DNA from: an uncultured Oscillospiraceae bacterium
Lineage (GTDB): Bacteria > Bacillota > Clostridia > Oscillospirales > Ruminococcaceae
NCBI GenBank assembly: GCA_949743955.1
Contig: CATJVQ010000035.1
Span: 1 to 64,000 of the forward strand
Direction of reading: 5' to 3'
DNA: 64,000 bases
Of the stretch, positions 11,000-29,775 are shown one piece after another; within the stretch, counting starts at the first letter, position 1; every line of letters begins with the position of its first letter. The notes under the pieces were generated by a model. It was not told where the DNA came from. It saw only the letters and a list, made by a program, of their open reading frames with translations, and made no database searches. The translations under genes and the position numbers were made by a program.

Positions 11000-12538
11000 T
11001 TACAATGTGCCCAGTTTGGAAAAAGAGCGGATGCTCATGCTGAGAAATTGTGCCGCATTTTCCGCTGTCAGTTTTTTTCTCAGAATCAAATCCAGAATCT
11101 GCGGAATTGAACCCTGCCAGTATCCGGTTCGGACAAAATCAAGCGCCTGATTATAGCCGACCGGATACGTATGCGGGACCGCCGTTTCCAGCGCCCGAAC
11201 CGCAGGATGCAGACTCTGCGGCACCTTCTTTAAAATATCTTCCACATCATACAGTTCAATCGGCGGCAGCGTCCCCATCCGGTTCAGATAGGGGTGCAGG
11301 TTTTCCGGCTCGCACACAAACGCGATGAGATCCCATGCGGCCTGTGGATTCTCGCAGATGGAGGAGATGCACAGCGGCATTCCGCCCATAAAGGTGAAGG
11401 AATTGGCCGGGCCGGCCGGGAAAGCGGCCAGTCCATAGGTCTGCTGGCCGCCGGCCGAGCTGTCCAGCAGCCATGTGTAGACAGCCGGGTGTGCAATCAT
11501 CATGGAGATCTGCCCTTTGACAAGCATGGAGGTAATATCCCTCGCCGACAGATCGAACATATTGGGCGGGCAGATTTTTTCCTCGAGCGCCAGACCGGTG
11601 TACCAGTGCAGGGCGTCTATAAATTCCGGCTCCTCTGTCGCGGGGAGGACACGGCCGTTATCAATCCGGAACATGCGGCCGCCGCGCTGGATAAGCCAGG
11701 GCATCATATCCTGAAGGGTCTGCGGCTCATGGCTGGTGGAATAAGCATAGGCGTAGAGCCCCTGCTCAGGATTGCTGAGCATTTTTCCCACTTCGACAAA
11801 CGTATCGTGCGTAAGCGGGCGTTCCTCCGGATCGGGAATTCCCGCATTTTGAAAATGATCGCGCCGGTAAATCAGCAGGCGTGTCTCAGAAAAAAGCGGG
11901 TAACCGTAGAGCTTACCGTCATGCACATAGGCGTTCAGTCCGTACCGAGCACAGCGCGCCTTTATCCGCTCGAGCTTTTGCGGGGCAATGAACTCATCGA
12001 GCGGCCGGATGATCCCCATGCGCGCCAGAATGCCCACAGCGTCGTTGCTTACGGAGAAAATGTCCGGCATTGATTTGTCGACAAATTTGTTTACAATATT
12101 CTCAATCGCGTCGTACCAGTTGTTCCAGTGTACCAGTTCAATATTCCAGCCGCTGCGTGTCGTATATTCGTCGAAGGCCTTAAGGAGAAACAGATCGGTC
12201 AGCCCCTCCTCCATCGCTATCTGGAGCTTCTTCGCCGCGGAGGTTTTGACAGAGGGAGGGGTAAAGCCATCGTCATTCTCGAACCACTCCTTCTTCATGA
12301 TCCGGCTGACAAACGTCCCCTTAGGGCGCACGCGCTCCACCATTCCGACTGTTTCCAATTCATCCAGCGCGCGGCGGATGGTAGGGCGGCTGATCCGAAG
12401 CTCTCTGCTCAATTCCAATTCATTTGGCATACGGGAGCCGAGAGGATATTCCCCGCTTTTTATCCGGTTGCTGATGATCAGGCGCACCTGACTGTGTAGA
12501 GGAATAGACAGCTCCCGGTTGATCAGATCTTCTCCCAC
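11000..12538 (-). CDS. GntR-type DNA-binding domain fused to an ABC solute-binding-protein domain
   Basis: The first 80 residues are a GntR winged helix (PLHSQVRLIISNRIKSGEYP, PNELELSRELRISRPTIRRAL, ERVRPKGTFVSR). Residues about 98-510 read as a family 1 extracellular sugar-binding protein (MalE-like): FVDKSMPDIFSVS, KLYGYPLFSETRLLIYRRD, GKMLSNPEQGLYAYAY, MLVKGQISMMIAHPAVYTW, GLAAFPAGP. There is no signal peptide, so the binding domain is cytoplasmic and would act as the ligand sensor. Start is GTG 12538 with GGGGCGGTGG upstream. The gene follows the FGGY kinase and MalG permease genes and probably regulates that sugar locus. The domain pairing is unlike the usual UTRA, FCD or LacI-like partners of GntR. 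Confidence 0.88.
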   Translation of the reverse strand: MGEDLINRELSIPLHSQVRLIISNRIKSGEYPLGSRMPNELELSRELRISRPTIRRALDELETVGMVERVRPKGTFVSRIMKKEWFENDDGFTPPSVKTSAAKKLQIAMEEGLTDLFLLKAFDEYTTRSGWNIELVHWNNWYDAIENIVNKFVDKSMPDIFSVSNDAVGILARMGIIRPLDEFIAPQKLERIKARCARYGLNAYVHDGKLYGYPLFSETRLLIYRRDHFQNAGIPDPEERPLTHDTFVEVGKMLSNPEQGLYAYAYSTSHEPQTLQDMMPWLIQRGGRMFRIDNGRVLPATEEPEFIDALHWYTGLALEEKICPPNMFDLSARDITSMLVKGQISMMIAHPAVYTWLLDSSAGGQQTYGLAAFPAGPANSFTFMGGMPLCISSICENPQAAWDLIAFVCEPENLHPYLNRMGTLPPIELYDVEDILKKVPQSLHPAVRALETAVPHTYPVGYNQALDFVRTGYWQGSIPQILDLILRKKLTAENAAQFLSMSIRSFSKLGTL

Positions 12539-14060
12539 AAAACCACCGCCCCTTTGACGCTGAACGTTCCCTGATTTCTACTGCCGCCGGTACAGTCCGG
12601 CAGCCTCCGCCGCTTTGTAAAGCGCCGCGCTGAACCATTTCGTGATAGGCCGGTATTGGGCGGGGTTCATAGCAGTGTGATATACGGCACAGCCGCCCCG
12701 CCGCCTCCCGGACGCCGGAAAACATCCCGCAGCCCACGCCCGCTAGGATAGCCGCTCCCAGAACGGCGCAGTCCGTTTGTTCCGGAACAGCCACCTTCCG
12801 CCCGCAGACATCAGCCAGAATCTGCATCCAGAGGCGCGAACGCGCAGCGCCGCCGCTGACAAAAAGCCTTTCCGGCAGGAGCCCCCATTCCCCCAGAAGG
12901 GCCACATTGCGGGCAATATCCGCCGATACCCCTTCCAGCGCAGCCCTCGCGATATCCGCCCGCCGTGTGGACAATGTCAGCCCCAGAAGTGTTCCTCTGG
13001 CGCCCGGATTCCAGTATGGGCATGCCGCCCCCTCAAAATAGGGCAGCAATGTCAGTCCGCCCGCTCCGGGCAGGGAGTACGCCTCGATATCGTTATCAAT
13101 TTCCGCAAGCGGCGCGCCCCCATACAGCTCCGCGCGGACCCACTCCATCAGTTTGCCCGTGGCCAGCATGGCCCCTTCGAGCACCCACAGGCCCGGGACC
13201 GCCGCGCGATGGCAGACCATGCGGCGCAGCGGATCCAGAACCGGACGATCGCAGACAGCCAGCAGGTTCGCCGCTGTCCCGATGCCTGTCTCCACGTCGC
13301 CCGCAGAGACAGCACCTGCTCCAAGCGCCGCGCACTGCTGATCGCCGCCGCCGCTGACAAGAGCGACTTTCCCCATCCCCCAGCGGCGGCAGAGGGTTTC
13401 GTTCAGCGTCCCGACTACGGTTCCCGGCTCCACAAGCTCGGGCAGGCGCTCCTTTCCTAGGCCGCTGTAACGCATCAGCTCATCGCTCCACATGCCGCCG
13501 GAGAGATCGAAGAGCATGGTCTGGCAGGCATTGGAAACATCCAGAAAATGCCGGCCCGCTCCAAGCCGGCACAATACAAAGTCATGCACCAGCCCGAAAC
13601 AAGCCGTCCTTCCAAAAATGTCCGGTTCTTTTTCCCGAAGCCACAGGATGAAAGCAAGTGTCCAAATCGTGCTGACCGGGACGCCGGTGATTTCGTAGAC
13701 CCGGGCCGCGCCCACTTCCCTCTCCAAGCGGGCGCACTGTTCCCCGCTGCGCGAATCCATCCAGGTGATGGCGTTGCGCAGCGGGCTGCCCTGGCTGTCT
13801 GTGCAAATCAGCGTGTCCCGCTGTGTGGAGAGGGACAGCGCCCGGATGTCTTTCCGGTCTCCCGAAAAGCGGTCCAGGACCCTGTCCACTGCGGTGACAA
13901 CAGCCTGCCAGAGATCCTCCGGACTCTGTTCCGCCCAGCCGGCATGCGGAAAGAAAAGCGGATACTCTACAGTTGATTTTACCATGTTCTTCCCATCATT
14001 GTCAATCAACATGGCTTTTACTGCCGTTGTCCCGATGTCGATCCCCAATACGTAATCCAT
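12420..14060 (-). CDS. FGGY-family sugar kinase (xylulokinase-like), frameshifted 3' end
   Basis: An ATP-dependent sugar kinase: N-terminal GIDIGTTAVKAMLID phosphate loop, SLSTQRDT, ITWMDSRSGEQ, SGGGDQQCAALGAG, LPYFEGAACPYWNPGARG and LFVSGGAARSRLWMQILAD, all in the order of xylulokinases. Family members are about 490-500 residues; this frame gives 546 and runs 119 bases into the regulator gene. Up to about 12637 the protein looks normal. In the neighbouring frame the DNA then encodes SAALYKAAEAAGLYRRQ and a stop at 12578, the tail expected for this family. A one-base insertion near 12634-12638 (or a sequence error) therefore replaced the natural C-terminus. The substrate is unknown. It follows malG by a few bases. 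Confidence 0.88.
   Translation of the reverse strand: MDYVLGIDIGTTAVKAMLIDNDGKNMVKSTVEYPLFFPHAGWAEQSPEDLWQAVVTAVDRVLDRFSGDRKDIRALSLSTQRDTLICTDSQGSPLRNAITWMDSRSGEQCARLEREVGAARVYEITGVPVSTIWTLAFILWLREKEPDIFGRTACFGLVHDFVLCRLGAGRHFLDVSNACQTMLFDLSGGMWSDELMRYSGLGKERLPELVEPGTVVGTLNETLCRRWGMGKVALVSGGGDQQCAALGAGAVSAGDVETGIGTAANLLAVCDRPVLDPLRRMVCHRAAVPGLWVLEGAMLATGKLMEWVRAELYGGAPLAEIDNDIEAYSLPGAGGLTLLPYFEGAACPYWNPGARGTLLGLTLSTRRADIARAALEGVSADIARNVALLGEWGLLPERLFVSGGAARSRLWMQILADVCGRKVAVPEQTDCAVLGAAILAGVGCGMFSGVREAAGRLCRISHCYEPRPIPAYHEMVQRGALQSGGGCRTVPAAVEIRERSASKGRWFCGRRSDQPGAVYSSTQSGAPDHQQPDKKRGISSRLPYAK
12578..12638 (-). other. Out-of-frame original C-terminus of the FGGY kinase
   Basis: Codons in the frame one base away read SAALYKAAEAAGLYRRQ then TAG at 12580-12578. 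Using this stop leaves a normal 39-base gap before the regulator's GTG, unlike the overlapping longer frame. Confidence 0.65.
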
Positions 14061-14064
14061 GTCT

Positions 14065-14889
14065 TCACCCCTTGACCGCCACGGCGGAAAGGCCGCTGAT
14101 CAGATTCTTTGAAAAGAACGAGAAGAAGACCAGTATCGGAATGGTCCCCACGGAGAGGCCCAGGATCTGGGCGCCGTAGTCGTTGCGGAACCCTGTGGAG
14201 AGGCCCTTGATCCCCAGCGGCAGTGTAAACAGCGCCTCCTTGTTGAGCACGACAAGAGGCACAAGCAGCGCGTTCCAGCTCCACAAGAACGAGAGCAGGG
14301 CCAGTGTCATGACTGCCGGCCGCAGGAAGGGCAGCGCAATTCTGAAAAAGATGGCATATTCGTTGCACCCGTCGATACGGGCGCTCTCGATCACCTCGTT
14401 GGGGATAGCGTCGCCGATAAACGAGGTCATCCAGAAGACGCCGAAAGCGCTTGCCCCGTTGGGCAGGATGATGGGCCAGAGGCTGCCCAGAAGGTGCAGG
14501 CTCCTCATCTCGATCATAAACGCTATCAGGCCGAGCTGTGTCGGGATCATCAGGGTCAGCAGGACGAAACCGTAGAGAACCTTTTTTAGGCGGAATTCAT
14601 ATTTGGAAATAGCATACCCGCACATGGCGCTGATGATGACACAGAGCACACACGAACCCGCCGCCGCCAGAATCGAGTTTCGGTAATAGGTGAGGATGGG
14701 CACGGTGAAGAGTGTCTTCATATTCTGCATCATGTAGTTGCCCGGTACGATCTTGATCCCGGTAAACAGATCGTTGATATAATAGGTCCCCATCACCATC
14801 ATCGAATAGAACGGGAACAGTGCGATGACGGAGAGCAGTGCCATGAAGAGGATCGCAGCTGCCCGCGGAGGTGTCAGCCGTTTGTTCAT
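14065..14889 (-). CDS. Sugar ABC transporter permease, MalG type (orphan)
   Basis: About 274 residues with six membrane helices and the permease EAA loop EVIESARIDGCNEYAIFFRIALP that contacts the ATPase. It would form the membrane channel with a MalF partner. The start at ATG 14889 (MNKRLTPPRAA) has GAAAGGCGG upstream; the longer frame to 15066 runs into the insertion element and is rejected. No MalF gene or solute-binding protein precedes it: the IS110-type element begins within about 80 bases. The kinase gene follows, so this is the remains of a sugar uptake operon. A complete unrelated importer lies at 22277-25939. Confidence 0.9.
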   Translation of the reverse strand: MNKRLTPPRAAAILFMALLSVIALFPFYSMMVMGTYYINDLFTGIKIVPGNYMMQNMKTLFTVPILTYYRNSILAAAGSCVLCVIISAMCGYAISKYEFRLKKVLYGFVLLTLMIPTQLGLIAFMIEMRSLHLLGSLWPIILPNGASAFGVFWMTSFIGDAIPNEVIESARIDGCNEYAIFFRIALPFLRPAVMTLALLSFLWSWNALLVPLVVLNKEALFTLPLGIKGLSTGFRNDYGAQILGLSVGTIPILVFFSFFSKNLISGLSAVAVKG

Positions 14890-14964
14890 GAGTATAATCC
14901 GCCTTTCTGCGAAAGGCACCGACGGGGTTATGAAACGCAGGTGCTTTCGCCTAAAAATGATGTT

Positions 14965-15190
14965 TGCTATACTATCCACGGAAGCGTTCGGTACACTACA
15001 GAAACCGTGGAGGTGAGTGGCGGGGCTGTATAGCGGCAACCCCGCATGTGTATATGGTTCGGTCACCCGTTAAGGCATCAACGAATGGCGCAGTACAGTA
15101 GCCCGTAAACTTATCTCTTTCAAATCGACTCGATTTTGCCGGGTGGCCAGTCCCTGCCGAACCTTCTCAATATGCGTTTGGAGGGATTAC
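14965..15190 (+). ncRNA. Candidate bridge RNA region of the IS110 element
   Basis: An extended -10 (TGC-TATACT, 14965-14973) would start a transcript near 14980. The RNA begins with a stem CCACGG (14976)/CCGTGG (15005-15010), followed by a stem-loop GCGGGG/CCCCGC (about 15019-15045) with an internal loop, and further structured bases before the transposase. IS110-group elements are known to make a bridge RNA from this upstream region whose loops pair with target and donor DNA. Presence of the RNA is inferred from position and folding. Confidence 0.5.
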
Positions 15191-16453
15191 ATGGCCTTCA
15201 AAATTCTTCGCAAGAACTGCTGTGGACTGGACGTTCATAAAACCTGGATATTTGCCTGTATTGGGATTACCGATTCCAATGGCCAGACAGAGTACAAGCA
15301 GGCTCGCTTCTCCTCGTTCTCCAAAGGATTACAGGATTTGGCTGACTGGCTTGCGAAATACTCTTGTTCGGACGTCTGTATGGAGTCCACAGGGAAATAC
15401 TGGATTCCTGTGTTCAACATTCTCGAAAAGACCTGTTGGGTTACCCTGGCCCACCCCAAGTACACGAAACCGCAGAAAGGCAACAAAACTGACCGTAAAG
15501 ACGCCAAATGGATTTGTGACCTGTATATGTGCGGCATGATCAAGCCCAGCTTTATTCCGCCGCCTGACATCCGTCAGCTCCGTGACCTGATGAGGTACCG
15601 TATGAAGCTTACCAACATACTGACCGGGGAAAAGAACCGCGCTCAAAACTGCCTGACTATTTCCAATCTGAAACTGGACGATGTGTTTTCTGACGTGTTT
15701 GGAAAATCCTCACGTTCCATCATCCAACATATGCTGGAACATCCCGGCGAACAGTTTGACGTATCCCCGTTTATTGACCGGCGTTGCAGGCACCCTGTTG
15801 AAGAAATTCAGGCTGCTGTTGACGGGGCAATATCCCGTGAGCAGGCGGCTAAACTCAAGGAATGCTTACTGCACATCGATCAACTCAAGGAACACCAGAC
15901 ACATATTGAAACCGAAATTCTTCGGCTTGCTAAACCCTACCCGTACCAACTGGAACTGGCCCGCACGGTTCCCGGTTTCTCTGCCGCCCCGTTGACTGCT
16001 GTTGCTCTCATCTCAGAAATTGGCGTGGATATGTCTGTATTTCCCTCTGCAAAACACCTGGTTTCCTGGGCCGGGTGCTGCCCTCGCAATGACCAGAGCA
16101 ACAAGAAAGTAAAATCCACCCGTATTTCCCGTGCCGGATGCTACTTGAAGCCCTTGTTAGTCCAGGTTGCAAATGCTGTCATCAAATCCGACAAGTATCC
16201 CGAATGCAGGGAACGCTACCGTAGGCTCAAGGCCCGCCGCGGGCACAAGAAGGCAATCATCGCCGTGTGCCGGATGCTCCTGACCGCTATCTGGAACGTC
16301 CTTTCCAAGCTGGAGCCTTATTCCGCAAAAGGCTATCTCGCTGACAAAATCACTGAGCATTCCGTTGTGATTTCCAAGGCTCAGGGGCTGGAACTACTCC
16401 GTAAGCGGGGATATATTTTCTCTGATGAAGTAAATATCCCTGATGCAACTTAG
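15191..16453 (+). CDS. IS110-family transposase (recombinase)
   Basis: A 420-residue protein with an N-terminal RuvC-like DEDD domain (CGLDVHKTW with the first Asp at residue 14, CMESTGKYW, GNKTDRKDAKW), a coiled middle region, and the C-terminal Tnp_20 part (ARTVPGFSAAPLTAVALISEIG, FPSAKHLVSWAG, STRISRAGCYLK, the Ser of which fits the catalytic serine region). It cuts and rejoins DNA under guidance of a bridge RNA. ATG 15191 follows GGAGGGATTAC. The frame is intact, so the element may still be active. Confidence 0.95.
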   Translation: MAFKILRKNCCGLDVHKTWIFACIGITDSNGQTEYKQARFSSFSKGLQDLADWLAKYSCSDVCMESTGKYWIPVFNILEKTCWVTLAHPKYTKPQKGNKTDRKDAKWICDLYMCGMIKPSFIPPPDIRQLRDLMRYRMKLTNILTGEKNRAQNCLTISNLKLDDVFSDVFGKSSRSIIQHMLEHPGEQFDVSPFIDRRCRHPVEEIQAAVDGAISREQAAKLKECLLHIDQLKEHQTHIETEILRLAKPYPYQLELARTVPGFSAAPLTAVALISEIGVDMSVFPSAKHLVSWAGCCPRNDQSNKKVKSTRISRAGCYLKPLLVQVANAVIKSDKYPECRERYRRLKARRGHKKAIIAVCRMLLTAIWNVLSKLEPYSAKGYLADKITEHSVVISKAQGLELLRKRGYIFSDEVNIPDAT

Positions 16454-16552
16454 ACCCTTTTCTTTCATCTACTTTTTTGGCGCTCTTTTGAGGGCCTGGT
16501 TTATTGCGCCCTTTTCCTGCTGCGCTCGTCATTCAGCCTGTTTCAAACTTGT

Positions 16553-17935
16553 GTCCTCCTTTACTGCGGGGGAAACGAATCCTATGTGGGGATGGTCGAA
16601 GGGATCCCGGAGAAGCTGGAGTATGGGTGGAAATCCTTCCGCGAGGATTTCAAAAGTACCTGCCGCCGGCTCGATCCGGAGCGGTTTTATCTGGAATCCT
16701 CCCCCTGCGGCGGGGATTACCCGAGCGATCCCCGGGAAGGGGACAGCCATCCGCTCTATTATACTTACCGTCATGCCGTGGTGCAGTATCCGCTCTTCAT
16801 TTCTGAGCAGGCGCGGTCCACCACCGGGCCGCTGCGCAGTCTGCGCCGTTTCATGACCGGCGAGGAGCTCTGGCCGAAGGGATATGTCAACCAGGTGACA
16901 GCCGGGCAGTATAACCCGACCTACAATATCTCCTATCCCGACAAGCCCTATTATCAGTACGATCCCGACTATCAGGAAAAGTATCAGGTGGGCTGGTCTG
17001 TTCCGCAACTGCGGGAAGATACGCTGTTCATGGTAACAAGCTGGAAAAAGGTCCCCATTCCGGAGACCTGGTGGCGCAGGGCTGCCTCGTTCTTCGCTTC
17101 GGAATGCGGCCCTCTGGAACGCTTCTTCGACGCGGAAAATATTGAGGAACTGATTTACCGGGTCAACGCTGCGACCGCCTGGTTCTTTAAGGACGATGCC
17201 GAGCGTATCCGGCGGGGAAAGCCCCACTATGAAGCCGGAGAACCGCGGCGCTGCCAGGGATATATCTATGTCAAGCTCAACGATACCTGGCCGCAGTTTT
17301 ACTGCACCCTCATCGACTTTTTTCAGGAGGTTTACATCCCCTATTACCAGTACCGCCGTTCTTTAAGCCCGGTACTGCTGTCGTTCGATTTTCAGGACCG
17401 TATCTTCCTGTGGGGAGTCAACGATACCTCTGAGGAAGTACAGGGCACGCTTCATGTCCGTGTATTCAGCCAGATCCGCAACCGTGTTGTCAATGAATTT
17501 TTTATCCCCGTTTCTATCGAGGCCGGAGAGTCCAAGGTCCTTACCTCGTTGGACAGAGTGTGCCCCATTGTAACGGAATCCGTTGTACATGCGGTCCTCA
17601 CCGGAGCGGACGGGAAGGTACTCTCCTCCTCCGATACGCTGGTGGATATGGAACGCCACCAGACCTTCCCGCAGGCGAAGCTGTCTCTTCAGGCGGAGGG
17701 GAATACGCTGATCCTCCGCACGGACCGCTATGCCCACTGCGTGGAGATCACAGGCAGTGAAGACGGCGACGAATTCGGCTGGTATTTTTCGGACAACTAC
17801 TTTAACCTTCTCCCCTATGAAGAAAAACGAGTGGAGATTCTTGGGCATCATACAAAGGGGGGCATTCGCGCCAAAGCGCATTATTCCAGCCATATAACCG
17901 AAACCGAGTATACGGCTCCCCACTGCCGGTTATAG
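16553..17935 (+). pseudogene. Glycoside hydrolase family 2 (beta-mannosidase-like), 5' part missing
   Basis: The frame carries the second half of a GH2 exo-glycosidase: LLYCGGNESY near 16556-16585, where NE holds the acid/base Glu, and YPLFISEQARS, where the Glu fits the nucleophile, followed by C-terminal beta domains to 17935. A family member would be around 850-1000 residues; about 460 remain. The signal and sugar-binding domains plus the first half of the barrel are missing, replaced by the insertion element. In-frame codons upstream of 16553 do not look like GH2 sequence and end at a TAG at 16451. An internal GTG (16586) could be translated but would give a truncated, probably inactive protein. 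Confidence 0.82.
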
Positions 17936-18055: not shown

Positions 18056-19489
18056 ATGCAGACGATGGAACGGACTGCCCCTGTAAAGACAGGGATCCAT
18101 TCGCATTCCATTATCCGGTTCCTCAACGAACTGGAGCTGCGGGGAATGGAACTGCACAGCCTTTTGATTTCTGCTCACGGGAAACTGATTTTTGAAGGGT
18201 ATTGGGCGCCGTACCGCCCGGATATCCCGCACATTCTCCACTCCCTGACAAAGGTGTATACCAATACCGCCGTGGGGTTTGCCGCCGCAGAGGGGCTTCT
18301 TCGGCTGGACGACACTGTCCTCAGCTTTTTCCCGGAATACGCCGGCCTTCTGGACGATCCCCGGCAGAAGAGGATGACTGTCCGGGATCTCATCACCATG
18401 CGCAGCGGGCATGGCAGGATGATCAGCGGCAACGAATGGCGGCCGATCCGCACGAGCTGGATAAAGGAATTTTTTAAGGAGCCCCTTGTCTGGGAGCCCG
18501 GCGAGAAGTACCAGTATTCCAGCGGCAACAGTTATATGCTCTCCGCCATCGTCCAGAAGGCGAGCGGGCAGACCGCCTGCGATTACCTGCAAAGCCGCTT
18601 TTTTGAACCGCTCGGCTTAAAGAATGTGCAGTGGGATTTGAGCCCCGAGGGGATCAATCCCGGGGGGAACGGGCTGTCCCTGTGCACGATGGATATCCTG
18701 AAAACGGCCCAGTTCTATCTGCAAAAGGGGTGCTGGGGCGGCCGGCAGATCCTCCCGGCCGAATGGATCGAGCGCTCCCTAGGCCAGCGGGACGCTCCGA
18801 CGGACGGCCAGCCGCTCTATGGGTATCACTGGAACAATTTCGGCAATGGGCGCGCCTATATTGCCGGCGGCGCCTTCGGGCAGGCGGCTGTGCTGATTCC
18901 TGAACTGGATATGGCCATGGCTGTCACGGCCGGCCACAACAAGGATACGCTTTTTGAGGTGATGGAGCATACCCTGCTGGAGAAACCCGGGGAAGTCTCG
19001 CCGGAGGAGGACACTATCTTAAAAAATAAAGGCGACTGCCTGAACCTGCTTGTACGTGTGGAACCGACCGAGTCGCCGATTCTGCCGCCGGGGGCAAAAC
19101 GGGTTTATTCCTGCGGGGAAAACGAGGACTCCATTACGGAGATCGCCCTCTCCCAGGAACAGAACGTACTCCGGTTTACAATGGCGGATCACCGCGGACG
19201 CCACACTGTTCTGTGCGGAATGGGCGGCTGGATATCCTCCTCCACATCAATGACCGGCAACTATCTGCATCATCAGTACCAGCCGGAGCATGCGCTGGTC
19301 TGTGCCAGCGGATGGTGGGAAAATCCGGATCGCCTGACGCTCATCTGGCGGTATCCGGAGATGGCCTTCTGCGATCGGGTTACGCTGCGCTTCTCAGAGA
19401 ATGGGGAGACACTTTCCATGCTGCGGGAAGTCAATGTCAACTCACAGGGGCTGAAACGGCCGGAAGTGACGGGAATCTGCCTCAGATAA
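18056..19489 (+). CDS. Serine beta-lactamase-fold hydrolase
   Basis: A 477-residue protein. Residues 25-310 form a class C beta-lactamase/esterase fold: nucleophile motif S63-LTK, GLLRLDDTVLSFFPEY, TVRDLITMRSG, second motif Y154-SS in YQYSSGNSYML, and YGYHWNNFGNGRAYIAGGAFGQ. The remaining 160 residues form an extra beta domain. There is no signal peptide, so it is probably cytoplasmic; such proteins are often esterases or deacetylases of sugars rather than antibiotic-degrading enzymes. The ATG has AAAGGAG 8 bases upstream. Its place between a glycoside hydrolase and a sugar importer suggests a carbohydrate ester as substrate (inference). Confidence 0.85.
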   Translation: MQTMERTAPVKTGIHSHSIIRFLNELELRGMELHSLLISAHGKLIFEGYWAPYRPDIPHILHSLTKVYTNTAVGFAAAEGLLRLDDTVLSFFPEYAGLLDDPRQKRMTVRDLITMRSGHGRMISGNEWRPIRTSWIKEFFKEPLVWEPGEKYQYSSGNSYMLSAIVQKASGQTACDYLQSRFFEPLGLKNVQWDLSPEGINPGGNGLSLCTMDILKTAQFYLQKGCWGGRQILPAEWIERSLGQRDAPTDGQPLYGYHWNNFGNGRAYIAGGAFGQAAVLIPELDMAMAVTAGHNKDTLFEVMEHTLLEKPGEVSPEEDTILKNKGDCLNLLVRVEPTESPILPPGAKRVYSCGENEDSITEIALSQEQNVLRFTMADHRGRHTVLCGMGGWISSSTSMTGNYLHHQYQPEHALVCASGWWENPDRLTLIWRYPEMAFCDRVTLRFSENGETLSMLREVNVNSQGLKRPEVTGICLR

Positions 19490-19539: not shown

Positions 19540-21285
19540 TCACAGGAAGGACAGCCGGTTCTCCTCCTCTTCCAGATCGATGCGCGGTACGCGCAGAGAG
19601 ACCAGTGTTCCGTTCTCTGCCGAGCTGTCAATCGACAGCCCGTATTCATCTCCGAAAATGAGCTTGATGCGCCAGCAGGTGTTGGCAATGCCAATTTTTT
19701 TGTGGCGGATGCTCTCTGTCTGCAAAGCGGATTTGTTCCCCAGAATCTTTTGCAGTTTTTCGAGCTTCTCCGGCGGAATGGGAACACCGTTGTTCCAGAT
19801 ATCGACCAGAAGGCAGGCGTCCTGTTCCCGCGCCGTCACGCGCAGCGTACCCCTCCCGGCTTTCTCCAGGCCATGGTAGACGGCGTTTTCCACCAGCGGC
19901 TGAAGGATCATTTTGGTCATCTTCTGCCTCATCAGGCCGGGCGGCACGTCGATTTCACACTCAAAAGCGCCCGCGAACCGGATCTGCATAATTTCCAGAT
20001 AGTTCTGGATGGACTGCATCTCCTTGGAGAGCGGAACGATTTCGTTCTCCCGCAGCGCATAGGTGAAAATACCGGACAGATTGGTCACAATATTGACAAT
20101 GATCGGCGCATGGCAGGAGACGGCGATTCCACAGATGCACTGCATCGTGTTTAGGAGGAAGTGCGGGTTAATCTGGCTTTCGAGCATCTGCCTCTCGCTC
20201 GCGGAGCGGGAGAGCTCAGCCTCATACAGCTCCTGCTGCGTTGTAATAATCCGGTGCGCCATATCGTCCTGCCAGTCTAAGAGGCGGTTCACCGTCTTGG
20301 CGATGTTTCCGATCTCGTTGTCGTCGGAAACATTGATACGCTTTTTAAAGTCCCCGTCCCTGATTTTTTCAATCTCGCCGGTGAGCCGGGAAATCGGCCG
20401 GACAATGCTGGAATTGATGATGCGCAGAGTGGAGAGAAGCAGCAGGAACATCAGAACGGCTGTCAGGAGGGTAAAGCCGGAAAAGAAGGAGTAGCTCTTC
20501 ATGGAGTTTTGGATATCTATATCACAGACGAGCTTCCAGCCCGTATCCCCGATATCCTCCGTGAGAGTGGAAGGCTTCTTCACCAGTTCCTCCAAATCGA
20601 AATTTTCCCGTGTCGTGGAGGCAATACTGCTCCCGTCCTTATCAATGAGGTAATAGCGCGAGCTGTCGTTCGTGTCGATATTTTGCAGAATCCCCTCCAG
20701 AATCCCCTGCTCCAAAACGACCAGAATCGTGCCGGTGCGCTTCCCGAAGGTAGGGTAGTCCGTGGATATTACCGGCTGCACATAGGCGATATAGGGGCGC
20801 CTGCCGGGGTTGTCCAGCAGGGTGAAAAAAGCACTGCGTTTCTCCTGTGTCAGAATCGTTTCATAGCGATCCAGGATGGAGCGCATATCCAGATCGTTGG
20901 GGTTATACTGGTAGCGCAGCCTTCCGTCGGTCCGGTAAACCGCGATATCCTTTAGGTAGCGGTTGGTCTGTACCGCGGTGGAAGCCTTATCGTTCCAGAC
21001 ATTCCACTGCTGATAGAAATCGAAGTCCTCCGTTGGTGTCAGGAAGCTGGTCACCGTTTTCCCGTAGGAGAAATAGTACCCCACCAGGCGCGCCTCCTCC
21101 AAAACCTCCTCAATCGAATAGGCAACCTGCTGGACGACGCTGCTGCTGTACTGATCGACCAGCTTCCGGGTGGAGGCCGAGATACGAGTATAGCCGAATG
21201 TCTGGATGATGCTCCATATCAAAAAGACGGACACGCTCAGAAGAAAAAATTTCTGATGAATCGTTCTGACCTGCGGTTTTTTCAT
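19540..21285 (-). CDS. Sensor histidine kinase, YesM family
   Basis: A 581-residue membrane kinase. It has an N-terminal membrane helix (about 14-33), an extracellular Cache-like sensor (about 35-260), a second helix (about 268-290), HAMP (SSIVRPISRLTGEIEKIRDGDF), the His_kinase domain with SQINPHFLLNTMQ (phosphorylated His), and the ATPase domain with QPLVENAVYHGLEK. Its gene begins 2 bases after the response regulator stop (TGAGAATG), with AAGGGAG in the regulator's end. YesM/YesN pairs typically switch on neighbouring sugar ABC importers; the importer here is transcribed away from it at 22277. Confidence 0.95.
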   Translation of the reverse strand: MKKPQVRTIHQKFFLLSVSVFLIWSIIQTFGYTRISASTRKLVDQYSSSVVQQVAYSIEEVLEEARLVGYYFSYGKTVTSFLTPTEDFDFYQQWNVWNDKASTAVQTNRYLKDIAVYRTDGRLRYQYNPNDLDMRSILDRYETILTQEKRSAFFTLLDNPGRRPYIAYVQPVISTDYPTFGKRTGTILVVLEQGILEGILQNIDTNDSSRYYLIDKDGSSIASTTRENFDLEELVKKPSTLTEDIGDTGWKLVCDIDIQNSMKSYSFFSGFTLLTAVLMFLLLLSTLRIINSSIVRPISRLTGEIEKIRDGDFKKRINVSDDNEIGNIAKTVNRLLDWQDDMAHRIITTQQELYEAELSRSASERQMLESQINPHFLLNTMQCICGIAVSCHAPIIVNIVTNLSGIFTYALRENEIVPLSKEMQSIQNYLEIMQIRFAGAFECEIDVPPGLMRQKMTKMILQPLVENAVYHGLEKAGRGTLRVTAREQDACLLVDIWNNGVPIPPEKLEKLQKILGNKSALQTESIRHKKIGIANTCWRIKLIFGDEYGLSIDSSAENGTLVSLRVPRIDLEEEENRLSFL

Positions 21286-21287
21286 TC

Positions 21288-22058
21288 TCAGACTCCCTTC
21301 GCCTGTATCGCAGCATGTCCTTTTCGGTATTCGGAGGGAGTGATAAAGAAGTGTTTTTTGAATACCTTATTAAAATAGGCGTAATCATCAAAGCCGATGA
21401 TCTGCGAAATGCGTGCGGAGGTCAGCTCCGTGCTCTCTAGCAGCAGCGCGGCTCTCTGCATCCGCAAATGGGTGACATAGTGGGAGAAGGTCATCCCCTT
21501 CTTTTTCATGAACAGGTTGCAGCAGTAATTGGGCGCCAGAAAAAACTGCTGCGCCAGGTCCTTGAGATAGAGGCGCTGGTTGTAATTCTGTTCGATAAAT
21601 TTCAGCATCCGGTCAAAATTGGTTTCGTTTTCCAGCGGCTCCTGTATCTGCGGATCGGATTTTTCCGCCTCCTTGCCCTCCAGCTTTTTGTAAAGGCGGG
21701 CGAGAAGCTGGCGCACTGTCTCCGCGGAAAGAGGCTTCAGGCAGTAATCGAACGCGCCGAGCTTCACCGCCTGCTGCGCGTACGCAAATTCGGCGAAGCC
21801 GCTGACGATGACGAATTCGCACTCCACTCCCCTGCCGCGGAAGTAGCTCATCAGATCCAGTCCACTGATTTCGGGCATCCGGACGTCGGTGATCACGACA
21901 TCCGGATGCCCAGCCTCTATAATCTGGAGGGCGTCGGCAAAGCTGCGTTCGGCGGCAATCACATGGAAGCCGAGCGCCTCCTGATCAAACAGCTCCTTCA
22001 GATAAACCAGTGTCCACGGTTCGTCGTCCACAAGCACGATCGCGTATACTCTTCCCAT
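21288..22058 (-). CDS. Response regulator with AraC-type DNA-binding domain, YesN family
   Basis: Residues 1-125 are a receiver domain (VDDE acidic pocket, phosphorylated Asp in VVITDVRMPEISG, later VSGF and Lys in YCLKPLS). Residues about 150-250 hold two helix-turn-helix motifs (LYLKDLAQQFFLAPNYCCNLF and SARISQIIGFDDYAYFNKVF). The linker is short for YesN-type regulators. It forms an operon with the kinase and is divergent from the importer operon; the shared 218-base gap has a perfect palindrome and a promoter. Confidence 0.95.
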   Translation of the reverse strand: MGRVYAIVLVDDEPWTLVYLKELFDQEALGFHVIAAERSFADALQIIEAGHPDVVITDVRMPEISGLDLMSYFRGRGVECEFVIVSGFAEFAYAQQAVKLGAFDYCLKPLSAETVRQLLARLYKKLEGKEAEKSDPQIQEPLENETNFDRMLKFIEQNYNQRLYLKDLAQQFFLAPNYCCNLFMKKKGMTFSHYVTHLRMQRAALLLESTELTSARISQIIGFDDYAYFNKVFKKHFFITPSEYRKGHAAIQAKGV

Positions 22059-22096
22059 TTTTTGCCCTTCCCATCACGCGGTTTTCAGCGCATTAT

Positions 22097-22116
22097 AGTG
22101 ATATAAAGATATCACT
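22097..22116. promoter_or_regulatory. Perfect palindrome upstream of the two-component operon
   Basis: AGTGATAT-AAAG-ATATCACT is a perfect inverted repeat 39 bases upstream of the response regulator start. It abuts a minus-strand TATAAT (22097-22092), so it may be an operator for that promoter. Which protein binds it is unknown. Confidence 0.45.
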
Positions 22117-22215
22117 TATATTATAATGGAAATGGGACGAAATTGCAAATTTCTGTCGAATCATACAGAAAAAAGTGAGATAGTTACATGAAATCCCTGA
22201 GATTGATTCATTTTT

Positions 22216-22239
22216 TATTCATAAAATACGTGATATACT
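22216..22239 (+). promoter_or_regulatory. Promoter of the ABC importer operon
   Basis: An extended -10 (TGA-TATACT, 22231-22239) lies about 40 bases upstream of the first permease gene. The -35 region is a T run without consensus, as expected for an activator-dependent promoter. Confidence 0.45.
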
Positions 22240-22276
22240 CTGAGACATCCCATTTTAAAGGAAGGAAGATGAGCCG

Positions 22277-23239
22277 GTGAACACATCCGTTGGCACTGCC
22301 GCCGCAGCTTCAGCCTCCAAGGCCGGGTTCCTCAAGGGGCGAACCTGGAAAAAAATCTGGCAGAACCGGGCGCTCTATGTTTTCGCACTCCCCATGACGC
22401 TTTATTTCATCATATTCAACATTGTGCCTTTATACGGGCTACAGATTGCGTTTAAGGATTTCAAACCGTCGAAGGGGATTATTGGCAGCCCGTGGGCGGG
22501 GTTTAAGTATATAGAAAAATTTTTGACCTCGTTTTCCTTCTGGGATCTGCTGCGCAACACGATGGTATTGAGCATCTACTGCCTGCTGCTCACCTTCCCC
22601 TTTGCCATTCTTCTGGCGCTGATTGTCAATTACACTCCGTTTAACAGCTTAAAAAAGCTGACGCAGACTGTCTCCTATGCGCCGCACTTCATCTCAATGG
22701 TCGTTCTGGTCGGCATGATGAACGTCTTCCTCATGCCCGGCAGCGGGACAGTGAACATCTGGCTCGGGAAACTGGGAATAGAAGCCATCGACTTCATGGG
22801 TTCCCCAAATATGTTCCCCCATGTCTATGCTTGGTCGCGTGTCTGGTCGCACACCGGCTATAACGCGATTCTGTATATCGCGGCGCTGACCAGCGTGGGG
22901 CCGGAGCTGCACGAGGCGGCGATAGTCGACGGGGCAAACAAGCTCCAGCGCATCTGGAATATCGACATTCCGGCCATCCTGCCCACCGCTGTCATCATGC
23001 TCATCATGGAGTCGGGGAATCTCCTCAATGTCGGGTTTGAAAAGGCGTTCCTGATGCAGTCCCCCGGCAACCTGACCACTTCGGAAATCATCAGCACTTA
23101 TGTCTATAAGGTGGGCCTGCTCAACACCCAGTACAGTTATGCCGCCGCCATCGGCCTCTTTAACAATGTCATCAACTGCGCAATTCTGTTAATCGTTAAC
23201 AAAATCGCCAAGAAGACGACTGAAACCAGCCTGTGGTAA
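22277..23239 (+). CDS. ABC importer permease, LplB family
   Basis: A 320-residue membrane protein with six helices, starting with the family-typical LYVFALPMTLYFIIFNIVP..LQIAFKDF and carrying the EAA loop ELHEAAIVDGANKLQRIWNIDIPAI. GTG start at 22277 with AAAGGAAGGAAG upstream. It pairs with the next permease to form the channel of an oligosaccharide importer. As usual for this class, no ATPase gene is adjacent; a shared MsmX-type ATPase elsewhere is likely. Confidence 0.95.
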   Translation: MNTSVGTAAAASASKAGFLKGRTWKKIWQNRALYVFALPMTLYFIIFNIVPLYGLQIAFKDFKPSKGIIGSPWAGFKYIEKFLTSFSFWDLLRNTMVLSIYCLLLTFPFAILLALIVNYTPFNSLKKLTQTVSYAPHFISMVVLVGMMNVFLMPGSGTVNIWLGKLGIEAIDFMGSPNMFPHVYAWSRVWSHTGYNAILYIAALTSVGPELHEAAIVDGANKLQRIWNIDIPAILPTAVIMLIMESGNLLNVGFEKAFLMQSPGNLTTSEIISTYVYKVGLLNTQYSYAAAIGLFNNVINCAILLIVNKIAKKTTETSLW

Positions 23240-23253
23240 AGGAGGAAAACTTT

Positions 23254-24153
23254 ATGGCACATACTCGCGTACACCGCAGCCGGCAGGATCTGGTGATTGA
23301 CAGTGTGATAGGGATCCTCTCCGTCGCCATTCTGATAGCCTCCGCCTATCCGCTCTACTTCGTGCTGATTGCTTCGTTCAGTGATCCGACGCTGATCGCC
23401 ACCGGGCAGGTCACGTTTTTCCCGAAGGGAATCACGACGTCGGCCTATGAGTATATTCTCAAGGAAAAAAACATCTGGCTCGGTTATCGGAATACAATTA
23501 TTTACACCATTGCCTCCACGCTCTTTGGCCTTGCCGTCACCATTCCCGGAGGATACGCTCTCTCCCGCAAGGATTTTATCGGCCGCGGTATTCTGATGAA
23601 GCTGCTGACCTTCACGATGTTCTTTAACGGCGGACTCATCCCCACCTATATCATGGTCAGCAAGATGCACATGCTCAATACACGATTTATCCTGATTGTC
23701 TTGGGGTGCATCACCGTCTTCAACGTTATCGTCGCCCGGACCTTCTTTACCGGCAACATTCCGGATGAGCTTCTTGAGGCCGCTTCGATCGACGGATGCG
23801 GGAACACCCGGTTCTTCTTCTCGATTGTCCTCCCGCTCTCGAAAACCATTATCGCCGTCATCGGGCTCTATATTGCCGTCTGGCAGTGGAACTCCTATTT
23901 CAATGCCCTCATCTATGTCACCAACCGCGAGCTGCTTCCGCTGCAGCTGGTGATGCGCGATCTGCTGATTCAGGGCCAGTCCCTGGCCTCCTCGGAGGAC
24001 ATGGACGCCGCCTCTGTTAAATACCTGATGGAAATTGCCCAGCTCATCAAATACGGTGTTATTGTTGTTTCCACACTGCCTATTATCTGCGTCTATCCGT
24101 TCGCACAGAAATATTTCGTCAAAGGGGTGATGATCGGTTCCGTAAAGGGTTAA
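23254..24153 (+). CDS. ABC importer permease, MalG/YtcP type
   Basis: A 299-residue permease with six helices (ILSVAILIASAYPLYFVLIASFS at the start) and the EAA loop ELLEAASIDGCGNTRFFFSIVLPLS; the C-terminal YPFAQKYFVKGVMIGSVKG is typical for the family. ATG 23254 has AAAGGAGG 7 bases upstream; an in-frame GTG at 23233 overlaps the previous gene and is less likely. It is the second channel subunit. Confidence 0.95.
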   Translation: MAHTRVHRSRQDLVIDSVIGILSVAILIASAYPLYFVLIASFSDPTLIATGQVTFFPKGITTSAYEYILKEKNIWLGYRNTIIYTIASTLFGLAVTIPGGYALSRKDFIGRGILMKLLTFTMFFNGGLIPTYIMVSKMHMLNTRFILIVLGCITVFNVIVARTFFTGNIPDELLEAASIDGCGNTRFFFSIVLPLSKTIIAVIGLYIAVWQWNSYFNALIYVTNRELLPLQLVMRDLLIQGQSLASSEDMDAASVKYLMEIAQLIKYGVIVVSTLPIICVYPFAQKYFVKGVMIGSVKG

Positions 24154-24196
24154 ATAGCCGGATAAAACACAATTCTGAAGAAAGGTGTGTAAAAAA

Positions 24197-25939
24197 ATGA
24201 AAAAGAAGACGAGAGTTCTGAGCGCCATTTTAGCCGCCTGCATGCTGGCGGCCGCGGCGACCTCCTGTTCTTCCTCCGGAAATGAGTCCTCCAGCGCAGA
24301 TCCCGCTCCCGCCGCCCCCGACGCGCCCAGCGCCGCGGATAACAACGAGGCGGCGGCACAGACGCCTCCGGAGAGCACCGGCGGGCCGAGCAGCCAGTAC
24401 TTTAACGCGGACGGCAGCATGATTCTTCCTCTCGTGCAGGAGGAGACGCGTTTCCGTGTCCTGTGGAACAAGCAGCCGAACGATAAGGGCACCATGGCGG
24501 ACAAGGTAATCCTCAACCAGGCCTATGAGGCGACCGGCATCACCTGGGATGTGGAAGAGGTCTCCGAGCAGGGCTGGGACGAGAAGGTTTCGGTTGTATT
24601 CGCCTCCAATGATCTGCCTGACCTGTTTTGCGGAAAGATTGATAATCTGATTAACTTCACGGATCAGTGTCTGGATGTGACGGATATGCTGCCGGAGTAT
24701 GCGCCCTATATGGCGGATTTCTACTTCAATCAGTATCCGGCCATCTTCGGCGCGGAGGCGTTTGAGGGGCGGATGTATTCCATGCCGCAGGTGCGTGTCA
24801 ACAACATCTGCTATGGCGGCGGCTGGGAAATCAACACCCGGTGGTTGAAGAACGTGGGGATGGAGCTTCCGGAGACCATCGACGATCTCTATGAGGTGCT
24901 CAAGGCCTTCCGGGATCAGGACGCCAACGGCAACGGCGACCCGAACGATGAAATCCCCTACTCCTTTGTCAAGATCGACGCCAACAATAAAGTGGGCGAG
25001 CGCGGCGTCACCCAATGGATGAACGCCTTCGGCATGATTAACGACGGAGCGAACAAAGCGGAGCACTACATCATGGCAGAGGATGGGAAGATTATTTTCA
25101 CGCCTCTGGATCAGCGGTTCTATGATATGCTCGTCTACCTCAACAAGCTCTATTCCGAAAACCTCATTGATAAGGACAGCTTTGTTCAGGAGGTTACGGA
25201 TCAGTATGCCAAGGCGACCTCCGATAAGATCGGTTTCGCTACCTGCGGCGGCCTGATCACCGAGCTGTGGGGCGAGACTGTCAGCGACGATATCGAATAT
25301 ATCCTCCCGCCCAAGAGCCAGTATGACCGTGCTCTCAAGCAGTCGGACCCGCCGGCGGAGCTCAATCTGCATGTTTACACCATTACCACTGCCTGCGAGC
25401 AGCCGGAGCTGCTGCTCCTCTTCCAGGAATACTGCAACACCGGTTTTGATAACCGTGTCCTCTCCCTGTTCGGGCCGGAGGGCGGCGCCTGGCTGTGGAA
25501 CGACGAGGAAAAAATGGTCAACAACTCCGACTTTACCGATAAGCCCTACGCGACCGTTGCGCAGGCCCGTGCGACACTGGCCCCCAACTACCGCATGGCG
25601 AGTATCATGGAGGAGGGCGACGAGGGAAAAAGAGAGTATGTCGGCTTCTCTCTGAAGTACAACCAGAGCCATAAGGACTTTTACGGCGTCGCCGGCGGCG
25701 CGGCCTACGGCGAATGCTTCCCGCTGGGCAACGATACGGCTGAAAACACTGCCGAGCGTTCGGAGATGTTCGCTGAAATTTCGACCTATCTGCAGAACTT
25801 CATCGCGGAATCGATTATGAACGGCATTGATGAGGCAAAGTGGGAGGCCCATAAGACCAACTGCCAGAAGCTGAACGTTGAAGGTTTTGTAGCCAACTAT
25901 CAGGCGCTGTATGATTCTCTGATGAGTCTGCGCGGCTAA
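24197..25939 (+). CDS. Solute-binding lipoprotein of the importer, LplA-like
   Basis: A 580-residue lipoprotein. The signal peptide (MKKKTRVLSAILAACMLAA) ends in a lipobox AATSC, with Cys24 as lipid anchor, followed by a Ser/Ala/Pro-rich spacer (about 25-60) and a large family 1-type binding domain (QAYEATGITWDVEEV, SNDLPDLFCGKI, YSMPQVRVNNICYGGGWEINTRWL). Start ATG 24197 is behind AAAGGTG; GTG 24185 is in that ribosome site. The large size suggests an oligosaccharide ligand. It closes the importer operon; a terminator follows. Confidence 0.94.
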   Translation: MKKKTRVLSAILAACMLAAAATSCSSSGNESSSADPAPAAPDAPSAADNNEAAAQTPPESTGGPSSQYFNADGSMILPLVQEETRFRVLWNKQPNDKGTMADKVILNQAYEATGITWDVEEVSEQGWDEKVSVVFASNDLPDLFCGKIDNLINFTDQCLDVTDMLPEYAPYMADFYFNQYPAIFGAEAFEGRMYSMPQVRVNNICYGGGWEINTRWLKNVGMELPETIDDLYEVLKAFRDQDANGNGDPNDEIPYSFVKIDANNKVGERGVTQWMNAFGMINDGANKAEHYIMAEDGKIIFTPLDQRFYDMLVYLNKLYSENLIDKDSFVQEVTDQYAKATSDKIGFATCGGLITELWGETVSDDIEYILPPKSQYDRALKQSDPPAELNLHVYTITTACEQPELLLLFQEYCNTGFDNRVLSLFGPEGGAWLWNDEEKMVNNSDFTDKPYATVAQARATLAPNYRMASIMEEGDEGKREYVGFSLKYNQSHKDFYGVAGGAAYGECFPLGNDTAENTAERSEMFAEISTYLQNFIAESIMNGIDEAKWEAHKTNCQKLNVEGFVANYQALYDSLMSLRG

Positions 25940-26056: not shown

Positions 26057-26350
26057 ATGGAAATCTGTAAATCCGCAGTCGCGGGCACGCTGGAATCCAG
26101 CGACGCGCAGATCTGGGTGGAGCCGGGCGACGGGGAGCTGGAGCTCTTCATCGACTCGGTTGTGGAGAAGCAGTATGGGGAGGAGATCCGCCGGGTGGTT
26201 CTGGAGACAGCCGCCTCCATGCAGGTGGAGCACGGGCGGATCACCGTTGTGGATAAAGGGGCCCTCAACTGTACACTGCGCGCACGCCTTCTGACAGCCA
26301 TCTGCCGCGCAGGCGAAATATCCTATGATTTTGGAGGGCGGGCGGAATGA
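26057..26350 (+). CDS. citD: Citrate lyase acyl carrier protein (gamma subunit)
   Basis: The 97-residue protein starts MEICKSAVAGTLESSDAQIWVEP; the Ser-Ser segment near residue 14 carries the phosphoribosyl-dephospho-CoA prosthetic group in this family. It holds the acetyl/citryl group while CitE and CitF act. ATG 26057 is used (GGAGAGG upstream). It is the first gene of the citD-E-F-C-XG operon and overlaps citE by ATGA. Confidence 0.95.
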   Translation: MEICKSAVAGTLESSDAQIWVEPGDGELELFIDSVVEKQYGEEIRRVVLETAASMQVEHGRITVVDKGALNCTLRARLLTAICRAGEISYDFGGRAE

Positions 26351-27249
26351 AAAAACGTCTCAGACGCACGATGCTGTATGTACCGGGCAACAGCCCCGGC
26401 ATGATCCGCGACGCACACATCTATGGCAGCGACAGTGTGATGTTCGATCTGGAGGACTCCGTCAGCCCGCAGGAGAAGGATTCCGCCCGTCTGCTCGTCT
26501 ATAACGCGCTGCGCTCGCTGGACTATGGGGACACCGAGCTTGTTGTGCGCGTCAACGATCTGCGCTCGCCGCAGGGAATCCAGGATCTGGAGGCCATGGT
26601 GCGCACCGGAAAGGTCATCATTCGCCTGCCCAAGACGGAATGTGCGGCGGACGTGGAGGAGTGCGAGCGGGAGATCCTGCGCATCGAGCGGGAGTCCGGC
26701 CTCCCCGAGGGCTCCACGCACATGATGGCCGCGATAGAATCCGCGAAGGGAGTCTTAAACGCGAAGGAGATAGCCTTCGCCTCCGAAAGGCTCATCGGCA
26801 TCGCCATCGGGGCGGAGGACTATGTAACGGATTTAAAGACCAACCGCTCCGCGGGCGGGATCGAGCTACTGTTCGGGCGGAGCATGGTGCTCCTCGCGGC
26901 GCGCGCCGCCGGTATAGACGCTATCGACACCGTCTACTCCGATATCAACAATGAAGAGGGCTTCCGCGAGGAGGTCCGGCTGATTAAGCAGCTCGGCTTC
27001 GACGGGAAGAGCATCATCAATCCCCGCCAAATCGGGCCGGTACATGAAATTTACACGCCCAGCGAGAAGGAGATCGAAAAATCGCTGCGGATTATGGAAG
27101 CCATTGAGGAGGCGCACCGGAAAGGGAGCGGTGTCATCTCCCTCAACGGAAAGATGATTGACAAGCCGGTCGTGGAACGGGCGCGCTGCCTCCTGGAGCG
27201 GGCACAGGCGGCAGGCGCATTAAAGGAGGATGAGAGCTATGGTGGATGA
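26347..27249 (+). CDS. citE: Citrate lyase beta subunit (citryl-ACP lyase)
   Basis: This subunit cleaves citryl-ACP into oxaloacetate and acetyl-ACP. 300 residues, HpcH/HpaI TIM-barrel type: RRTMLYVPGNSPGMI, VMFDLEDSVSPQEKDSAR (metal/substrate Glu-Asp), VVRVNDL, IIRLPKTE, AAIESAKGV, IGAEDYVTDL, GFDGKSIINPRQI. It overlaps citD at its start and citF at its end. Confidence 0.97.
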   Translation: MKKRLRRTMLYVPGNSPGMIRDAHIYGSDSVMFDLEDSVSPQEKDSARLLVYNALRSLDYGDTELVVRVNDLRSPQGIQDLEAMVRTGKVIIRLPKTECAADVEECEREILRIERESGLPEGSTHMMAAIESAKGVLNAKEIAFASERLIGIAIGAEDYVTDLKTNRSAGGIELLFGRSMVLLAARAAGIDAIDTVYSDINNEEGFREEVRLIKQLGFDGKSIINPRQIGPVHEIYTPSEKEIEKSLRIMEAIEEAHRKGSGVISLNGKMIDKPVVERARCLLERAQAAGALKEDESYGG

Positions 27250-28780: not shown

Positions 28781-29775
28781 TGACTGAGGAGTTCTGGTCC
28801 CCTCTTCGGGGAAAGCGCCTGGAGGCGGTCAGGGATTTCCTCCAGGCGCAGGGGCTGCGCTGGGACGAGAGAAGCGCATCCACCCTCCTCTTTCTGGAGG
28901 AGGACGGGCACATCGCCGCCTGCGGATCGCTGGATGAAAACATCCTCAAGTGTATCGCCGTATCGCAGGAGCGGCAGGGGGAAGGGCTGGCGGCCCGGCT
29001 GGTGAGCGGTCTGACGGCGCAGGCTGTCCAGAACGGATACACGCACCTGTTTCTGTTCACCCGGCCCGAAAAGGGGGAGCTGTTCTCAGATCTGGGGTTT
29101 TATGAGGTCGCCCACACCCCGGACATCCTCTGGATGGAAAACCGGCGGGGCGGTATCCGGCGTTTCACTGATTCTCTCCGGGCAGATCCCCCGCCCGGCG
29201 GGGTGACGGGCTGCATCGTCGCGCATGCGGATCCCTTCACGCGGGGGCATCAGTACCTCTGCGAGGTGGCGTCGGCCTCCTGCGACCAGCTGTACCTGTT
29301 TATCCTGACAGAGGACCGCGGGATGTTCCCGGCCGCGGATCGCCTCCGTCTCGCGCGGGAGAATACAGCGCACCTTGCCAATGTGCGGGTCTGTGGAAGC
29401 GGCCCGTATCTCATCTCCTACGCCTCCTTTCCGGACTATTTCTTAAAGGAGGCGCAGGTTCTCCCCTCCCGGTACGATCTGGACCTGACAGCCTTCGCCG
29501 AAAAGATTGCCCCGCCGCTGGGCATCACCCGCCGGTTTGTGGGCAGCGAGCCGTTTTCCGCCGTGACCGCCGGATACAACCGGGCGATGGAGCGGCTGCT
29601 GCCTGAGCGCGGCATTGAAGTGGTGGAGCTTCCCCGGCGGGAGGCCGGGGGGCAGAGCATATCGGCCGGGCGGGTGCGCGATCTCATCCGGCGGGGGCAG
29701 GTTTCGGAGGCCCTCCCCTTTCTGCCTGTGCCCACTCGCCGGTATGTGGAGGAGACAGTATGCAGAACGAAGTGA
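28780..29775 (+). CDS. citC: [Citrate (pro-3S)-lyase] ligase
   Basis: It acetylates the citrate lyase prosthetic group with ATP and acetate, activating the enzyme. The 331 residues show an N-terminal GNAT-like domain (ILKCIAVSQERQGEGLAARLV) and a C-terminal nucleotidyltransferase domain (GCIVAHADPFTRGHQYL, an HXGH-like variant, and GGQSISAGRVRDLI resembling ISxTxxR). Start at ATG 28780, overlapping the citF stop. The HXGH position reads FTRGHQYL with Thr-Arg-Gly-His, as in other CitC proteins. Confidence 0.95.
   Translation: MTEEFWSPLRGKRLEAVRDFLQAQGLRWDERSASTLLFLEEDGHIAACGSLDENILKCIAVSQERQGEGLAARLVSGLTAQAVQNGYTHLFLFTRPEKGELFSDLGFYEVAHTPDILWMENRRGGIRRFTDSLRADPPPGGVTGCIVAHADPFTRGHQYLCEVASASCDQLYLFILTEDRGMFPAADRLRLARENTAHLANVRVCGSGPYLISYASFPDYFLKEAQVLPSRYDLDLTAFAEKIAPPLGITRRFVGSEPFSAVTAGYNRAMERLLPERGIEVVELPRREAGGQSISAGRVRDLIRRGQVSEALPFLPVPTRRYVEETVCRTK

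Follow-up and report, generated by a model that had tools for sequence, protein, structure and literature searches.

A GntR winged helix joined to a type II sugar-binding protein domain: a putative sugar-responsive regulator in an uncultured Oscillospiraceae bacterium

Transcription regulators of the GntR/HutC type, such as YvoA/NagR, TreR and DasR, have UTRA, about 160 residues long, as their effector domain, and the sensor of AraR has the LacI/Peripla_BP type I fold. The fusion protein described here is similar to the GntR/HutC-type regulators in its type of winged helix and in its sugar-catabolism context, but in place of UTRA it contains a class II solute-binding-protein portion some 400 residues long. 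AraR is the nearest analogue, as it also combines a GntR winged helix with a cytoplasmic, periplasmic-binding-protein-like sugar sensor; since the sensor of the fusion is of type II (SBP_bac_1/SBP_bac_8) and that of AraR of type I, the two are considered analogous and separate inventions. In fold, length and cleft segment, the C-terminal part of the fusion resembles the ABC sugar-binding proteins 5ci5 (Thermotoga lettingae), 1eu8 (trehalose/maltose), 7c63 (beta-glycosides) and CbpB 7x0i (cellodextrins). These are exported lipoproteins serving an importer, whereas the fusion has no signal peptide and possesses a DNA-binding domain. According to a survey, the Pfam profiles of solute-binding proteins (SBPs) also pick up the sensor domains of sensor kinases and of transcriptional regulators, cytosolic ones among them (PMC9602780). 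A GntR domain fused to SBP_bac_1/8 was not found described in the openly accessible literature; the architecture may already have an entry in InterPro or a similar domain database.

Domain composition and fold of the fusion protein

In this study, a stretch of 64,000 nucleotides (referred to as the window) from an uncultured Oscillospiraceae bacterium of gut type was analysed. The fusion ORF was present exactly where the preliminary description had placed it, at 11000..12538 on the minus strand, encoding 512 aa from a GTG start without an internal stop. The start codon is supported by the N-termini of four independent homologues, which are collinear with it. An assembly artefact or a chance ORF was ruled out, because the same architecture recurs in five collinear loci from four genomes and two phyla.

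Residues 16–77 (12308..12493, minus strand) form a GntR winged helix-turn-helix, as indicated by matches to Pfam PF00392 (1.3e-15; 57 bits versus a curated cut-off of 27) and to YvoA/NagR (9.3e-9), and the Pfam match fits the GntR superfamily of transcription regulators. When the N-terminal part was compared with the PDB by phmmer, YvoA was the best solved match (residues 6–93) and AraR was also detected; the GntR models of NCBIfam were restricted to the N-terminal 80–125 residues or so. Following a variable linker (residues 78–104; 12227..12307, minus strand), in which identity among the homologues was 5–33% and pLDDT fell below 50 at residues 88–101, the solute-binding-protein domain occupies residues 104 (approximately) to 512 (11003..12229, minus strand). 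Pfam assigned residues 120–428 to SBP_bac_8 (4.6e-22) and SBP_bac_1 (5.5e-21), both exceeding the curated cut-off. NCBIfam matched the C-terminal part with MalE- and GanS-type models, and phmmer matched it with the sugar-binding proteins 1eu8, 5ci5 and the 7c63 series in the PDB.

A known GntR effector domain as the C-terminal half was ruled out by Pfam and NCBIfam, in which UTRA, FCD, the MocR aminotransferase, YtrA and the AraR effector domain all gave no match to the fusion. Pfam also gave no match to the type I families Peripla_BP_1, 3 and 4. With SBP_bac_1/8 as the sole C-terminal match, the protein belongs to the GntR superfamily but to none of its described subfamilies (UTRA, FCD, MocR, YtrA or AraR). 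Kyte-Doolittle analysis detected no signal peptide, lipoprotein export segment or transmembrane segment in the fusion, the maximum over 19 residues being 1.13 versus 1.7–2.3 in the N-termini of three operon binding proteins. Lacking a hydrophobic N-terminal segment, the fusion is not a transport SBP and has only the SBP fold.

An AlphaFold2 model of the fusion, calculated from an eight-row alignment, had a mean pLDDT of 81, with the linker disordered at residues 88–101. In a Foldseek search, the sugar-binding proteins 5ci5, 1eu8, 7c63 and 7x0j were matched across the C-terminal domain with TM-scores by target length of about 0.8, for example 5ci5 (E 9e-24; 0.81), and every top match was a sugar-binding protein of type II. 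Searching BFVD with the fusion model returned nothing informative. Pfam, the model and Foldseek indicate that the two-lobe class II binding-protein fold spans the full length of the SBP domain. Thus, the preliminary description was correct in proposing a GntR winged helix fused to a complete cytoplasmic MalE-like domain (residues 104–505 or so), as judged by Pfam, the model and the lack of a signal peptide; the structure prediction that it had called for superposes the C-terminal domain on ABC sugar-binding proteins (TM 0.8).

Homologues and linked loci

No homologue was recovered when genome contigs were scanned with the single protein; a profile built from two aligned sequences and run against 85,000 species genomes recovered four full-length homologues with 35–57% identity to the window fusion and with identical domain order. 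Two of them are in Treponema sp. Gx481_bin162 (57% and 35%), one is in a Lachnospiraceae MAG (locus L049; 37%) and one is in an uncultured Oscillospiraceae MAG (36%), whose contig is that of G1122, a genome assigned to the family of the window. Members were found in at least 1 of 391 genomes of the window's class and at least 2 of 397 of its family; both counts are lower bounds, because no more than a few candidates were scored in each genome. In the family of the Lachnospiraceae MAG, 1 of 397 genomes had the fusion; none of the other nine matches there started before profile position 89, which is what plain binding proteins should give. The architecture is rare, at about 1–2 per 400 genomes sampled. 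Plasmid and viral collections contained no fusion, and a Sinorhizobium match (H1; query residues 35–454) carried no annotation. A GntR-SBP protein in G826 of the same phylum (L037:1285-2718), 477 aa in length, is more distant (23% identical); its neighbours are a gene of the enolase superfamily and an importer of ribose type (RbsB-like). An AU test of single versus repeated origin, with G826 set against the five fusions, did not separate the two (p 0.27).

Each of the four full-length homologues adjoins a sugar importer, a glycosidase or an FGGY kinase. The intact Treponema locus L048 has the order LacI regulator, fusion and GH2 gene (opposite strand), followed by SBP-malF-malG-FGGY kinase. 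A second locus type, referred to as type B, is represented by L049, L051 and partly L050. The order in L049 is SBP-malF-malG, two glycosidase-like genes, fusion and FGGY kinase; L051 has the same order minus the kinase, with ThuA and Gfo/Idh/MocA genes upstream; and L050 has a glycosidase-like gene, the fusion and a kinase. The kinases pair in the same way as the fusions, that of the window with L048 and that of L049 with L050.

Proteins of approximately 725 aa are encoded in pairs next to the fusion in L049 (5569-9945) and L051 (5403-9755), and also in L050 (2-1501). They had no match in Pfam or NCBIfam. The model of one was poor (pLDDT 52) and its best matches, GH42 and GH164, are a hint only; an unnamed glycosidase family is possible on this basis.

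Upstream of the linked operons, no shared operator motif was found beyond chance, palindromes being present. Two candidates were tried and rejected as shared operators, a palindrome of the L049 promoter (ATGTAACGTTACAT) and a repeat of TTGTA found in L048, neither of which was common to the other loci beyond chance. The shuffle count of the L048 repeat is not evidence, because the pattern was derived from its own two copies.

The broken locus in the window

The kinase and permease genes that the preliminary description had reported next to the regulator are both present, but they are remnants of a larger, broken locus. The FGGY-family sugar kinase (12579..14060, minus strand) is 58% identical to that of L048, and the MalG-type importer permease (14065..14889, minus strand) is 85% identical; the corresponding value for the fusion is 57%. 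The C-terminal 30 residues or so of the kinase are encoded in a different frame (12578-12690), ending about 40 bases before the regulator start, and this shift accounts for the 119-base overlap of the listed kinase and regulator ORFs. The shift could be a frameshift or a sequencing error.

Beyond malG, an IS110-family transposase gene (15143..16453, plus strand), present as a single copy in the assembly, is situated at the deletion junction (14890-16543). It is followed by the C-terminal half of a GH2 beta-mannosidase-like enzyme (16544..17935, plus strand), which corresponds to residues 430–886 of 887 and is 77% identical to the Treponema enzyme. Compared with the intact L048, IS110 stands where the binding protein, malF and GH2 residues 1–429 should be. 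In the draft assembly (66 contigs, 98% complete), the importer binding protein is missing throughout, the best match in the genome being a 24% paralogue, and GH2 residues 1–429 are missing from both the window region and the whole assembly; malF, searched within the window, is missing there, with a 24% paralogue as the best match. On this comparison, the importer binding protein, malF and the N-terminal half of GH2 appear to have been lost through an IS110-associated deletion.

As the locus that it would regulate has decayed here, the regulator gene has either been orphaned recently or acts on another target. The window copy, and this copy only, could even be a non-functional relic of the decaying locus, which would be compatible with a regulatory role for the family. 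Such a relic would fit the IS110 element at the join, the frameshifted kinase tail and the genes gone from a 98%-complete assembly or, for malF, from the window; yet the regulator ORF is complete (512 aa versus 510 in Treponema) with every clade-invariant residue kept, malG and the GH2 fragment are still 77–85% identical to Treponema, and the shifted kinase frame may have arisen in sequencing, the assembly being a draft of 66 contigs. We regard a relic as a real, if somewhat doubtful, possibility.

Elsewhere in the window, a beta-lactamase-fold serine hydrolase is encoded at 18056-19489, residues 2–293 of which gave a partial match to 3-succinylated cholic acid synthase (216 bits versus a cut-off of 800). 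A YesMN-like sensor kinase and an AraC-type response regulator lie beside an importer that has two permeases and a binding protein of its own (19540-25939), and a citrate lyase cluster (26347-31091) encodes CitE- and CitF-type subunits by Pfam, then likely ligase and accessory genes. Two more GH2-like genes of the genome are seemingly broken (G000:C46:4326-5374 and G000:C22:12093-14489), the signs being fragmentation and a TAA inside a frame.

Sensor domain, sugar cleft and proposed mechanism

The preliminary description had further proposed that the binding protein of this importer was itself converted into the sensor. This part was not supported. BLASTP at E≤1e-3 revealed no match of the L048 operon binding protein to either the window or the L048 fusion, and the type-B operon binding proteins were 21–24% identical to the fusions in local alignment. 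In the tree, the five fusions formed one clade (100/100) separate from the operon binding proteins, and a quick tree with extra binding proteins again did not place this clade as their sister. An AU test did not firmly reject a grouping of the type-B binding proteins with the fusions (p 0.30). That the fused domain is a duplicate of the operon's binding protein, and hence senses the same sugar, is very unlikely in view of these alignments and trees, even though the Pfam families are identical and the type-B binding proteins resemble the fusions in the [ED]-x-R pattern of the pocket (GGDxR versus FSETR) and in having an equivalent of W141. The L048 operon binding protein belongs to a subfamily other than that of the fused domain. 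The sensor domain is thus best described as a recruited sugar-binding protein of importer type, not a recent acquisition and not demonstrably derived from this importer.

The densest invariant block in the fusion clade is residues 201–220, in which 11 of 20 positions are invariant and which ends in YGYPxFSETR. From conservation and alignments, its last ten residues, 211–220 (YGYPLFSETR; 11879..11908, minus strand), are the cleft motif, which includes E218. This residue aligns with E117, and W141 (codon 12116..12118, minus strand) with W41, of the Thermus thermophilus beta-glycoside-binding protein; both are unchanged in all five fusions. Mutant crystal structures cover the two reference positions (E117A, 7c71; W41A, 7c6x); the W67A entry shows that residue numbers in the PDB and in the chain file differ by one. 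At the FSETR site of the fusion, the closely related solved protein CbpB has WFTETR. Two other tryptophans of the reference pocket, W67 and W177, are replaced in the fusion by A167 and Q273. These residues support a working sugar cleft with a predicted ligand unlike cello-oligosaccharides. Our best guess for the ligand, drawn from the recurrent gene linkage, is an imported beta-glycoside or the kinase substrate.

The solute-binding domain might, alternatively, bind no ligand and serve as a dimerisation or protein-interaction module, for example docking to the importer or the kinase, so that transport activity and not a free sugar is sensed. Such a role would agree with the two missing tryptophans, with the distance of the fused domain from the operon binding proteins, and with the position of the kinase, directly beside the regulator in 3 of the 5 fusion loci and elsewhere in the locus in a fourth. 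We consider it unlikely, since conservation within the domain peaks in the cleft segment, neither W141 nor E218 varies, and the permease side faces another compartment than the surface with which the domain usually partners.

Given a cytoplasmic MalE-like half in a GntR-type protein and importer, glycosidase and kinase neighbours, a sugar-responsive regulator is the natural reading. We therefore favour, with a probability of about 0.7, a cytoplasmic one-component transcription regulator that senses a sugar and controls a locus for uptake and breakdown. The GntR winged helix, presumably as a dimer, would bind operator DNA at a predicted position, and the complete ABC-type sugar-binding domain would sense the sugar inside the cell. 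Binding of the ligand would close the two lobes and shift the winged helices, so that the DNA is released or, less likely, bound tighter. In CbpB, the binding of cellodextrins brings about closure through a rotation of some 17 degrees at the hinge (PMC9601137). Release from the DNA would turn on the genes for the binding protein, MalF, MalG, the glycosidase and the FGGY kinase; by analogy to most GntR regulators, repression with induction by DNA release is the expected direction. Several observations count against this mechanism: the W67 and W177 equivalents are absent, no operator is shared, the window locus is broken, and a LacI-type regulator that could be the controller of the importer lies beside the L048 fusion.

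More broadly, we lean slightly towards the view that the fusions constitute an undescribed family of sugar-responsive GntR regulators, which would use a cytoplasmic type II ABC sugar-binding protein as the effector, the closure of its lobes setting the spacing of the winged helices, and would have spread horizontally between Clostridia and Treponema with a glycoside-uptake locus. The sensor domains carried by GntR winged helices would then include a type II importer binding protein. ABC sugar-binding proteins, a large pool with many solved ligands and structures, could accordingly become intracellular transcription sensors through simple fusion. If true, this would be the type II counterpart of the LacI story, which concerns type I binding proteins, and would provide a direct template for sugar biosensors.
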